Positions 3,559 to 19,147 of a DNA stretch of 38,259 nucleotides are shown piece after piece. The position numbers were made by a program, and so were the translations under genes. The stretch is from the IMG/VR virus record IMGVR_UViG_3300031576_000175, positions 1-38,259 of that record; one strand, given 5' to 3'. The notes beneath the pieces were generated by a model, which did no database searches, had not been told where the DNA came from, and saw only the letters and a list, made by a program, of their open reading frames with translations. The first letter of the stretch is position 1, and each line of letters opens with the position of its first letter. Source of the stretch: a virus.

Positions 3559-3590
3559 AGCTTTCGCAAGAGCGGTTGCGTTGTCAGGAT

Positions 3591-16468: not shown

Positions 16469-17323
16469 CTAATCAGCAGGCAGGTTGCGTATCCTCAGCA
16501 GTTCAGTGAGAATCGCATCCCGGTCAGCCTTGAGGCCGTTCACCACCGCCTCTACCAGCCCGATCCGCACATCGAGCGCGGTGACGAGCGTAGTTAGGAG
16601 CGCTAGCTTATCAGTAGCTACGCCCCCGCCTGGGGGAGGCGTAGGGGGAACGGGCGGCGTCGGCGGCGCATTCAACGCCACGAGCGATGGGCGGCGCAGG
16701 AACGCACCAACGGTATCCACGCCCCACCGCGCCCGGACTTCGAGCGAAACGTCCAGCTGACCGCCCGGATGGATGAATGTGCGCTCGACTGTGCGCCATT
16801 TGCGAAATCCATCATTAGATGGCATCCAGGCTATGGCCTCGTCGGTATCCGTACCAAGAGAAATACGCCACTCCATAGCTCGCGGATCATCAGGCGGAAC
16901 TTTCTGTTGATTGCGCGAGAAATAGACATCGTTAAAAAGCTCAATCGAAAATTTGTAGTCTCCAGCCGGACGCACATCTCTGGTGCCAAGTTCCCACATT
17001 TGAATCCCAAACGCTTTGAACGCATGGTAGACCACAGGCGCATCAGGGGCCAAATATAAATCCAACTCGCTAAGTGGAAGCGCCTCGGTCGCGGTCTGAC
17101 CGTGTACCGCGCCATTGGCCGAGCGAAATGTAAGCTCAGGAGCCAGCCAGGGAGCATTAGCATCCTGTTCCGGAAGACGTGGATGCAGACCCTCGACAAA
17201 TTCAAAATACCAGCCATTCGGGACGCGCATGTTACCGCGCACGACGTTGCCATGAGCCGGGTCGGTAAATGGAGTAGACGTTCCTTTCGTCCAATCTGGG
17301 TTAGCGAGTAAATTGGTAGTCAT
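16469..17323 (-). CDS. Jelly-roll-like protein with Pro linker and C-terminal coil
   Basis: 284 residues, overlapping the previous gene by 4 bases. Residues about 1-215 begin NLLANPDWTKGTSTPF, typical of carbohydrate-binding-like jelly-roll domains, with regular strands ending VSLEVRARWGVDTVGAF. A Pro-rich linker (PPTPPVPPTPPPGGG) leads to a helical C-terminus with hydrophobic heptads (LALLTTLVTALDVRIGLVEA). Context next to holin-like and membrane-coil genes suggests a part in lysis, surface binding or a virion appendage. No muramidase or amidase motif is seen, so it is not called an endolysin. Confidence 0.6.
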   Translation of the reverse strand: MTTNLLANPDWTKGTSTPFTDPAHGNVVRGNMRVPNGWYFEFVEGLHPRLPEQDANAPWLAPELTFRSANGAVHGQTATEALPLSELDLYLAPDAPVVYHAFKAFGIQMWELGTRDVRPAGDYKFSIELFNDVYFSRNQQKVPPDDPRAMEWRISLGTDTDEAIAWMPSNDGFRKWRTVERTFIHPGGQLDVSLEVRARWGVDTVGAFLRRPSLVALNAPPTPPVPPTPPPGGGVATDKLALLTTLVTALDVRIGLVEAVVNGLKADRDAILTELLRIRNLPAD

Positions 17324-17664
17324 CCGATGCTATCCTTTGGCTTCCAGAGCGGTCGTTCGCCGGCAGAAACAATCTGACTGATGAGGACGCGGATACCGGC
17401 CAGGTATTCTTCCTCGCGCACCCGCATCAGATCAAGTTCTTTTTCGAGCCGGGTCGCCTTCGCGTCCGACACGGCCAATTTCTCCTCAAGGTCTTTGACC
17501 CGCATTTCCAGCGGTTCAATGAGCGTTTGATAGGCCTCGCTGATGTCGCGTGCGGCAGAGGCGTCGCCTGCCCGGACCGCGGCCCGTCCATTGCGCCATT
17601 GAATCAGCATACCGCCCAGGGCGACGACGGCCATCACGATTGCGGTCAGTTCGGGCCAGGTCAT
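17320..17664 (-). CDS. Membrane-anchored coiled-coil protein (spanin- or holin-like)
   Basis: 114 residues. One N-terminal membrane helix (LTAIVMAVVALGGMLI, about residues 6-22) is followed by a long charged coil (EMRVKDLEEKLAVSDAKATR, LEKELDLMRVREEEY). That build matches inner-membrane spanins of the Rz type, which link membranes at lysis in diderm hosts, but small phage coil proteins of unknown use look the same. It sits directly before the jelly-roll gene (4-base overlap) and after the holin candidate and a micro-ORF. No partner lipoprotein was found. Confidence 0.55.
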   Translation of the reverse strand: MTWPELTAIVMAVVALGGMLIQWRNGRAAVRAGDASAARDISEAYQTLIEPLEMRVKDLEEKLAVSDAKATRLEKELDLMRVREEEYLAGIRVLISQIVSAGERPLWKPKDSIG

Positions 17665-17703: not shown

Positions 17704-17793
17704 TCAACCGACAGGAGAAAGACCAATCCGATTCGCAAATAGCGCCACGTCAACAGCGAACAGGAGCGCGATCCCCGCCGCTTGCCAGTTCAT
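17704..17793 (-). CDS. Small membrane peptide, 29 residues
   Basis: ATG 17793 overlaps the holin-like gene's stop (TGATG). One hydrophobic segment (GIALLFAVDVALFA) spans most of the peptide. Translational coupling and position in the lysis-like group are the only support. It may modulate the holin or have no function. Confidence 0.45.
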   Translation of the reverse strand: MNWQAAGIALLFAVDVALFANRIGLSPVG

Positions 17794-17999
17794 CACTTAC
17801 TTTTGAATGGCGGCAGAGGGCCAGAGTTTGATTCAATCGCCGTGCCGAGAATGTAGGCGACGATGACGTAGACCACGTTGGTGAGCTGGTCTTCAGTGAG
17901 CGGAAAATCGGGCTGATACGCTTTGACTACAACCAGACCAGTGCCAACAGCCGCCGCCCAAAACTTGCGGGATGCGAGTAATGCCTTGAATTTGTCCAC
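17793..17999 (-). CDS. Holin-like small membrane protein
   Basis: 68 residues with AAGGAG upstream. Two hydrophobic segments (FWAAAVGTGLVVVKAY, residues about 14-29; VVYVIVAYILGTAIE, about 43-57) are separated by a polar loop with a Pro (DFPLTEDQLTN), and the tail is basic. This pattern is common in phage holins, which form pores to release the lysin. It is preceded by the first copy of a duplicated structured leader that may hide its ribosome site. Holin function is inferred. Confidence 0.65.
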   Translation of the reverse strand: MDKFKALLASRKFWAAAVGTGLVVVKAYQPDFPLTEDQLTNVVYVIVAYILGTAIESNSGPLPPFKSK

Positions 18000-18003
18000 G
18001 AGA

Positions 18004-18104
18004 TTCTCCTTATTGAAATAGGGGCAGGGGGACGATGAGAGGAGACCGCTTGGCGCGAGGAGGAAACCCGCCCCGCCCTGCCCGATGGGGATAGTCTAGC
18101 ACAA
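18004..18104 (-). promoter_or_regulatory. Structured leader module A upstream of holin-like gene
   Basis: Minus-strand leader homologous to 18305-18421. It begins with TGCTAGACT (possible extended -10), has a closing stem GGGCAGGG/CCCTGCCC, contains TTTCCTCCTCGCGCC and TCTCCT, and ends with AAGGAG just before the holin-like gene. TCTCCT can pair with the AGGAGA ribosome site. Shared blocks between the two copies are GGCGCGAGGAGGAAAC and GTCTAGCACA (plus-strand sense). A cis-acting translation control RNA is inferred. Confidence 0.6.
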
Positions 18105-18130
18105 CATGATGTTATCTCCTGTAATTGGAT

Positions 18131-18167
18131 TGCCCGATTCTAATCACGAGGCGATTAGAATCGGGCA
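18131..18167. repeat. Perfect 15-bp inverted repeat
   Basis: TGCCCGATTCTAATC at 18131-18145 is the exact complement of 18153-18167, with a 7-base loop. There is no U run on either side, so it is not a standard terminator. It lies between the 36-residue ORF and leader module A; it may be an RNA-stabilising hairpin, a terminator of another type or a protein-binding operator. Confidence 0.85.
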
Positions 18168-18188
18168 GGTCCGCAACCAACGAATGGA

Positions 18189-18299
18189 TTATACAGTCTC
18201 GCGCATAAATCGCATGCCGAAAAAGTCCACGCGCTCAGTTGTGCCAACGCGCGAATGCTTGCCGAAATGCCAAGCCAGCCAAAACACGATCTTGAACAT
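18189..18299 (-). CDS. Small protein, 36 residues
   Basis: ATG 18299 lies 8 bases after AAGGAG. The peptide starts hydrophobic and aromatic (FKIVFWLAWHFGKHS) and ends basic (FFGMRFMRE). It is preceded by leader module B, the second copy of the structured leader that also precedes the holin-like gene, which supports its being a real, regulated gene. It may be a small membrane-active peptide. Confidence 0.5.
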   Translation of the reverse strand: MFKIVFWLAWHFGKHSRVGTTERVDFFGMRFMRETV

Positions 18300-18304
18300 A
18301 ATGT

Positions 18305-18421
18305 AATCTCCTTGTCGAATAGGGCAGAACGAGACGGCGAGAGGAGAACGCATCCTGAGCGATAGCCGAAGGCGCGAGGAGGAAACCGCCCCGCCTGCCC
18401 AACTGCGTAGAGTCTAGCACA
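18305..18421 (-). promoter_or_regulatory. Structured leader module B upstream of 36-residue ORF
   Basis: Second copy of the leader at 18004-18104, about 16 bases longer because of an insert matching CCTGAGCGATAGCCGAAGG (18354-18372). It keeps the GGGCAG/CTGCCC closing stem, TTTCCTCCTCGCGCC, the TCTCCT tract that complements the AGGAGA ribosome site, and the TGCTAGACT box. TTGCGC lies 16 bases before TAGACT, giving a possible promoter. Confidence 0.6.
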
Positions 18422-18490
18422 TTTCGGGCAAGGCGCAATTGTGACGGGAGTCATACCCTGGTTAGGCAGGCGGGGTCTGAAAATTGGGTG

Positions 18491-18519
18491 TTGACAAAAG
18501 TAGCAAATAGTGGTAAAAT
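18491..18519 (+). promoter_or_regulatory. Consensus-like early promoter with operator-like repeats
   Basis: TTGACA (18491-18496), 17-base spacer, TAAAAT (18514-18519). The ATG of the next gene is at 18526, exactly where transcription should begin, so the message is probably leaderless. AGTAGCA occurs at 18499-18505 and 18520-18526, 21 bp apart, flanking the -10 box, and could bind the encoded ribbon-helix-helix protein. The 18000-18525 gap otherwise holds the leader modules, inverted repeat and 36-residue ORF. Confidence 0.8.
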
Positions 18520-18525
18520 AGTAGC

Positions 18526-18723
18526 ATGAGACAGAAAAATAGTAAGCGCCCCGTGAAACGAAAAATGTCCGTCAGCCTGGCCGCCGAGGACGAAAAGATT
18601 GTAAATGCTCTCTCGAAAGAGATGGGCTATTACAATTTTTCGCTGGCTCTACGCCAGATTATTCACGAGTGGGCAGTGAAGCGGGGCATGCCATTCCCGC
18701 CAGCGGGGAGCGAATTGAAATGA
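18526..18723 (+). CDS. Ribbon-helix-helix-like regulator, first early gene
   Basis: 65 residues. A basic N-terminus (RQKNSKRPVKRKMS) then a VSLAAEDEKIVNALSKEMGY segment and FSLALRQIIHEWAVKRG give the strand-helix-helix plan of Arc/MetJ-type repressors. It is first in the plus-strand early operon, behind a near-consensus promoter with two 7-bp repeats that may be its own operator. No ribosome site exists before the ATG, consistent with a leaderless transcript. Function as autoregulator is inference. Confidence 0.65.
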   Translation: MRQKNSKRPVKRKMSVSLAAEDEKIVNALSKEMGYYNFSLALRQIIHEWAVKRGMPFPPAGSELK

Positions 18724-18959: not shown

Positions 18960-19147
18960 GCGTCAAACAAAAACCAGTCAGCAGGTGCTACGCCTGCAAA
19001 AGTGAAATCAAGCCGCTCTATCTCCCGTACTACTGGATATCTTTCCGGGGTTACGAGCGGGCGCACTGCTCCGGGACGTGCCGGGCTAAGACGCGGGAGC
19101 GGGCGCGGAAAGAACAGGAAAAGGGTTTACAGGAGATAATGAAATGA
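18956..19147 (+). CDS. Small zinc-ribbon protein
   Basis: 63 residues from ATG 18956 (ATGA overlap). CYACKSEI and, 25 residues later, HCSGTCR give a C-x2-C...C-x3-C type metal site; the C-terminus is a charged helix (RERARKEQEKGLQEI). The end overlaps the next gene by four bases. Probably an early nucleic-acid or host-factor binding protein; no family known. Confidence 0.6.
   Translation: MSVKQKPVSRCYACKSEIKPLYLPYYWISFRGYERAHCSGTCRAKTRERARKEQEKGLQEIMK

Follow-up and report, generated by a model that had tools for sequence, protein, structure and literature searches.

An extended -10 promoter, a 5' leader, and an AAGGAGA ribosome site occur together twice on the minus strand of a phage genome, and this duplication of a control cassette is beyond chance. 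The DNA analyzed (the window) is the 38,259-bp IMG/VR virus record IMGVR_UViG_3300031576_000175, which encodes a Mu-gpT-like capsid protein, a large terminase, and a RecT-like protein. We tentatively propose that the leader is a cis-acting folded 5' UTR that was duplicated along with its promoter and ribosome site.

Layout and strength of the duplication

Both units lie in an intergenic stretch, flanked on one side by rightward early-type genes and on the other by a short cassette of small membrane-type genes that reads leftward. The features, in the order of minus-strand transcription, are as follows.

18526-18723, plus strand: first rightward gene, downstream of a strong TTGACA/TAAAAT promoter
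18411-18421, minus strand: promoter P1, extended -10 TGTGCTAGACT, with TAGACT at 18411-18416
18300-18405, minus strand: leader 1, 5' UTR of the 36-aa ORF; predicted to form a long hairpin in which two CU-rich strands are opposed
18386-18400, minus strand: 5' arm of leader 1, GGGCAGGCGGGGCGG; predicted partner 18322-18337
18376-18385, minus strand: 5' CU tract of leader 1, TTTCCTCCTC; predicted largely unpaired
18339-18347, minus strand: 3' CU tract of leader 1, TCTCCTCTC; predicted unpaired, its TCTCCT complementing AGGAGA
18322-18337, minus strand: 3' arm of leader 1, with CTGCCC at its end
18307-18313, minus strand: ribosome site 1, AAGGAGA, serving the ATG at 18297-18299
18189-18299, minus strand: 36-aa ORF (MFKIVFWLAWHFGKHSR...), start ATG at 18297-18299
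18131-18167, minus strand: perfect 15-bp hairpin without T-run, 3' of the 36-aa ORF and between the two units
18093-18103, minus strand: promoter P2, extended -10 TGTGCTAGACT, without a good -35
18000-18087, minus strand: leader 2, 5' UTR of the holin-like gene; layout as in leader 1, apical part 17 nt shorter
18067-18083, minus strand: 5' arm of leader 2, GGGCAGGGCGGGGCGGG, doubling as a canonical G-quadruplex motif
18057-18066, minus strand: 5' CU tract of leader 2, TTTCCTCCTC
18037-18045, minus strand: 3' CU tract of leader 2, TCTCCTCTC
18022-18035, minus strand: 3' arm of leader 2, with CTGCCC at its end
18005-18011, minus strand: ribosome site 2, AAGGAGA, serving the GTG at 17997-17999
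17793-17999, minus strand: 68-aa holin-like protein, start GTG at 17997-17999; probable membrane segments
17320-17664, minus strand: 114-aa protein with one membrane segment and a coiled coil

The first-pass annotation had described two minus-strand leaders with common blocks, and this was borne out. Comparison within the genome gave 87% identity over ~52 nt (E 1.9e-10), and 72 of 86 aligned letters were identical from the stem to the start codon in a hand alignment. The local alignment score of the copies was 65, and none of 500 shuffles exceeded the top shuffled score of 31. The blocks GGGCAG/CTGCCC, CCTCCTC, TCTCCT, and AAGGAGA were found in both copies and in the same order. Conservation covered the two arms and the two CU tracts as well as the ribosome site; the apical part differed by a 17-nt indel. 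Copy 1 is composed of TGTGCTAGACT, GGGCAGGCGGGGCGG, TTTCCTCCTCGCGCC, the longer apical part (+17 nt), GCGTTCTCCTCTC, CGTC, CTGCCC, AAGGAGA, and the ATG at 18299, and copy 2 of TGTGCTAGACT, GGGCAGGGCGGGGCGGG, TTTCCTCCTCGCGCC, AAGCGG, TCTCCTCTC, CGTC, CTGCCC, AAGGAGA, and the GTG at 17999.

The repeated unit exceeds this first description, from which the extended -10 element TGTGCTAGACT was absent. The element is identical at the head of both copies, and these are its only two exact occurrences in the window. Because promoter, leader, and ribosome site are all repeated, the duplicated thing is all three together. The letters TGTGC-TAGACT of P1 and P2 agree with an extended -10 element; searching the window on both strands for the pattern TRTGnTAnnnT gave four matches, of which P1 and P2 alone were identical. 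P1 is preceded by a weak -35-like TTGCGC at 18433-18438 with a 16-nt spacer and was not recovered by a stricter -35/-10 scan. A 15-nt inverted repeat with 14 matches (18461-18475 and 18389-18403) flanks P1 and is a possible operator pair.

The genes downstream of P2 encode the 68-aa protein, two tiny ORFs, the 114-aa protein, and a 284-aa protein, and the set looks like a lysis cassette. The 114-aa protein is a probable member, with a weak XhlA-like match that fell below the cut-off (E 0.048). No member of the putative cassette passed the Pfam cut-off, and the 68-aa holin-like protein gave neither a Pfam nor a PHROGs match. The 36-aa ORF had no family match and no homologue among the retrieved loci. 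No intrinsic terminator was found in a scan of the region; the 15-bp hairpin at 18131-18167 may mark the end of the first transcript or protect it.

Two further observations concern the flanks. TTACAGGAGATAA followed by ATG occurs at two places, 18105-18124 and 19127-19139. The former lies directly 5' of P2 and creates a three-codon ORF (ATG TTG TGC TAG) within the promoter; the latter precedes a rightward gene at 19144. Insertion of copy 2 may have separated an older ribosome site and ATG from the holin-like gene. On the other side, the strong TTGACA-17-TAAAAT promoter at 18491-18530 serves a 65-aa possible ribbon-helix-helix protein by a predicted transcript that is almost leaderless, and AGTAGCA/ATAGTGG/ATAGTAGCA repeats within it resemble operator half-sites.

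According to our proposal, promoter, 5' leader, and ribosome site would have been duplicated together within the phage lineage. Each of the two identical extended -10 promoters would give rise to one transcript, and the leaders of the two transcripts would be nearly identical; one leads to the 36-aa ORF, the other to the holin-like gene and the small genes that follow. Close to its 5' end, each leader most likely forms a long hairpin with the CU-rich strands opposed in an internal loop, and the ribosome site would lie in the tail, beginning 8-10 nt past the hairpin. The leader would work in cis. In the simplest case it would shield the 5' end of its mRNA and give both genes a common translation level; extra control may come from the CU-rich loop strands, through the binding of a factor or through transient pairing with the ribosome site. 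We infer from the sequence the transcription starts, an effect on stability or translation, and a link to lysis, the timing of which the leader might influence. If control does operate at the RNA level, the phage copied a whole control cassette, putting two small genes under one rule, and the two copies constitute a natural test of which leader letters matter.

Predicted fold and its alternatives

The first-pass annotation had called the leaders structured, a description that was upheld in part. It is supported by the consensus of the two copies in the hand register, in which GGGCAGG and CTGCCC were aligned by identity. This consensus comprised 18 pairs at -26.3 kcal/mol, with a z-score of -3.5 against column shuffles for the full leader and of -3.85 to -3.9 for the hairpin part alone; one of 1000 shuffles was as good in the former case and none of 1000 in the latter. 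The reverse strand of the same alignment reached a z-score of only -1.9. All 18 pairs hold in both copies. Four of them vary (U-G/U-A, G-C/G-U, and G-U/G-C twice) and none is broken; each variation is a one-sided change, and two-sided covariation between the two copies was not seen. The signal was lost in the MAFFT registers, in which the 5' arms are offset by one letter (z-scores of -0.7 and about -1.1). Single copies scored weakly: the z-score of copy 1 was -2.2, and that of copy 2 was -0.2 to -1.6, according to which stretch was folded. As the stem was known beforehand to the aligner, the hand register, albeit based on identity, gives support rather than proof. Thus, a common fold of both leaders is supported by computation, conditional on the alignment.

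In the predicted ensemble, calculated without the quadruplex option, the closing stem had a probability of ~1.0 in both copies, with the two CU-rich strands on opposite sides of an internal loop. Once the quadruplex option was enabled, copy 2 favored a G-quadruplex over the stem (-44.4 versus -41.2 kcal/mol). Copy 1 has just two-layer G-runs, and a G-quadruplex was not favored there; in these predictions the G-quadruplex is therefore not a shared feature. The motif in question, at 18067-18083 (G3-CA-G3-C-G4-C-G3), lies directly downstream of P2 on the non-template strand and is one of five canonical G-quadruplex motifs in the window.

The strongest competing explanation is control at the DNA level, given the local cluster of TGCCC/GGGCA words and the inverted copy of the leader 1 arm located 5' of P1. 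The conserved blocks would then be DNA signals, namely a duplicated promoter with TGCCC/GGGCA operators for a phage regulator, and the apparent stem would consist of inverted half-sites. We regard this as possible but rather unlikely. The promoter core is identical in both copies. TGCCCGA occurs 11 times in the window, with four occurrences within this 0.5 kb, and TGCCC occurs seven times in 490 bp here, the top count among 756 sliding windows. The inverted copy of the 5' arm matches at 14 of 15 nt and falls outside the transcript, and the region borders on a divergent early promoter and a small gene for a possible ribbon-helix-helix protein. Moreover, the ESAS repeats beside ribosome sites of cluster K phages were judged likelier to be DNA sites by their authors (PMC3203893). 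However, two of the four local TGCCCGA copies are the arms of one hairpin, the CU tracts and the leader as far as the ribosome site are also conserved although operators alone would not need them, and the transcribed strand gives the better fold.

A neutral or recent duplication of the promoter region, with a fold that has no function and reflects only the folding of any G+C-rich sequence, appears unlikely. The modest single-sequence z-scores and the nonsignificant MAFFT-based consensus are consistent with it, as is the lack of conservation beyond this genome, and the high identity across the unit could also reflect fairly recent copying without constraint. Against this stand the differences at paired columns, four of four of which keep the pairing, and the hand-aligned z-scores below -3.4.

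Complementarity between the CU tracts and the ribosome sites

Built-in anti-Shine-Dalgarno tracts directed at each leader's own ribosome site had also been claimed. TCTCCT is indeed complementary to AGGAGA in both copies, but such a 6-nt complement to the ribosome site was present in 31% and 34% of dinucleotide-shuffled leaders. When the complement was required to be nested within a 6-bp GC-rich stem, the proportions were 4.5% and 6.5%. The two leader copies are related, so their complements are not independent events. Real phage leaders from 2.5 Mb of retrieved phage DNA showed no excess; a 6-nt complement to the ribosome site occurred in 11.0% of them versus 10.3% after shuffling (1,375 starts with a ribosome site). 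TCTCCT was predicted to be unpaired, and its pairing probability with AGGAGA was 0.00 in both copies, in an ensemble computed without the quadruplex option and with pseudoknots outside the model. The anti-Shine-Dalgarno claim is thus possible yet unsupported, as the complement is no better than chance.

Given the predicted fold, contact between TCTCCT and AGGAGA could be made solely as a pseudoknot. By geometry, copy 2 could form an H-type pseudoknot with 6+6 bp, whereas copy 1 would need a longer second loop. Pseudoknots of the 6+6-bp H type were found in 16 real and 18 shuffled leaders of 2,290. For the two tracts, duplex energies were calculated at -7.7 to -11.0 kcal/mol, similar to the -8.9 kcal/mol of a generic 16S tail. 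A switch in which the loop TCTCCT and AGGAGA form a pseudoknot and delay translation of the small membrane proteins is improbable. It is favored by the presence of the complement in both copies, by duplexes between the TCTCCT tract and the ribosome sites of -8.9 to -11.0 kcal/mol that are comparable to that of the 16S tail, by the attainable H-type geometry, and by a stronger 9+9-bp version in unrelated phage leaders (the L202 group, see below). It is disfavored by the chance level of the complement in shuffled and real leaders alike, by 6+6-bp pseudoknots that are no commoner in real leaders, and by the predicted absence of pairing, a prediction that is blind to pseudoknots.

The more ambitious idea that a new kind of phage regulatory RNA has its founding copies in these leaders, in which two anti-Shine-Dalgarno loop strands and a loop-to-tail pseudoknot would switch the ribosome sites between blocked and open and keep the 36-aa and lysis proteins in step, is very unlikely. 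Should the leaders have no role at the RNA level, they serve as a warning: since chance alone makes about one-third of CU-rich leaders complementary to their own ribosome site, an anti-Shine-Dalgarno reading requires more than a 6-nt complement.

A leader for early termination or antitermination, with the CU-rich 3' half loading Rho or a phage antiterminator recognizing the hairpin, is also highly doubtful, for although the leader lies immediately downstream of the promoter and has a C-over-G excess of 13 and 16 in 60 nt with 18-21 YC steps, the C/G imbalance is moderate and not among the genome extremes, much of the stretch is predicted to be paired, and the region is without an intrinsic terminator.

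Relatives and comparable systems

Five gapped pattern scans over IMG/VR, blastn against isolate phages and over all retrieved loci, and a sequence-only model run over 50 related virus records recovered no homologue of the leader. The searches returned just chance matches or non-homologous analogues. The best match of the sequence model, L172 (15.5 and 16.3 bits), was rejected since it lies antisense within a coding gene. Relatives identified by the holin (L003, L004, and L005), RecT, or the terminase were not syntenic and carried no such leader; the holin-like relatives in L003 (61% identity) and L004 (49%) have other genes upstream. Terminase and capsid relatives had little else in common with the window, and a scan of genome contigs gave only weak Clostridia holin relatives. 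Because patterns, blastn, and the sequence model yielded no homologue, the element is known from two copies in one genome, and it is best read as lineage-specific.

It had also been stated that no described family was known for the pattern. This holds at the level of Rfam, which gave no match in the window, only chance-level matches with E up to 5; related kinds of control are nevertheless known. In Helicobacter pylori, aapA3 mRNA has metastable anti-Shine-Dalgarno hairpins (PMC6733600). The phage leaders resemble it in the small membrane-active product, in CU-rich stretches near the ribosome site that are able to pair with it, and in possible transient folding during transcription. In aapA3, however, the anti-Shine-Dalgarno stretches form hairpins directly with the Shine-Dalgarno sequence, and a further one at the 3' end locks the mRNA (PMC6733600), whereas the phage tract is enclosed in the loop of a closed hairpin, with no antisense RNA seen. 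The aapA3 structures have covariation and in vivo probing behind them; the phage fold is a prediction from two sequences.

The alpha-r14 sRNAs, e.g. NfeR1, have CCUCCUCCC loops (PMC10746234). Hairpins, unpaired anti-Shine-Dalgarno motifs of the CCUCCU type, and variable stems are common to both. The alpha-r14 sRNAs act in trans and have three hairpins and an ultraconserved CCUCCUCCC (PMC10746234), whereas the phage element is part of an mRNA leader with CCUCCUC and UCUCCU. The absence of an Rfam match, the motif CCUCCUC, and the lack of an intrinsic terminator place it outside this family. The T4 gene 32 leader contains a proven pseudoknot bound by gp32 (PMC3014915). It likewise is a phage leader structure upstream of a ribosome site, with translational control there; in the present leaders the pseudoknot is hypothetical, and no autoregulator is known. 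None of these three systems agrees with the phage leaders in its defining features.

The SAS/ESAS elements of cluster K mycobacteriophages are similar in that a repeated element with inverted repeats lies directly 5' of several ribosome sites in one phage. ESAS arms are 17 nt long with a spacer of mostly 4-13 nt, and RNA hairpins were little supported according to the authors (PMC3203893). In contrast, the unit described here includes the promoter, and its arms are ~31-48 nt apart. It does not belong to the ESAS/SAS elements: the 13-nt SAS is GGGATAGGAGCCC, as compared with the ribosome sites AAGGAGATTACATT and AAGGAGAATCTC, and arms and spacer differ.

Several leaders in other phage contigs are analogous. 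Most came from the search patterns used here and are thus analogies, not evidence. The hairpins with CCTCC in the loop (L259 and L178/L194) and the leaders pairing with the Shine-Dalgarno sequence (L202 type and L079/L081) were rejected as not homologous. L259:2566-2660 contains two neighboring intergenic hairpins, 3' of TGTGCTAGACT, with CATCCTCCTCCCTGAG and TTTTCTCCTTTCA in their loops. The second is terminator-like (T-run), there was no Rfam match, and the pair looks, from its sequence, like a small RNA with anti-Shine-Dalgarno loops. The phage contigs L194 (4360-4420) and L178 share a 10-bp hairpin, GGGCAGGTCA/TGACCTGCCC, with the loop GCTTTCCTCCTCCTTTCA. In L079:3380-3555 and L081, the leader of a methyltransferase-like gene has nested hairpins whose loop region TTCCTCCAAACG complements the downstream CGTTTGGAGGA, an 8+8-bp pseudoknot candidate in a terminase relative. 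Finally, six actinophage-like contigs (L202, L209, L216, L230, L237, and L255) carry a leader of a Cas4-family-exonuclease-like gene, exemplified by TGTGCTACACT in L202 (minus strand, start codon at 3576). The stem GTGGGCTGG/CCAGCCCAC encloses the loop GTCTCCTTT, an exact 9-bp complement of AAAGGAGAC just before the start. The two helices adjoin without a linker, making this a textbook candidate for an H-type pseudoknot at a ribosome site, with 9+9 bp.
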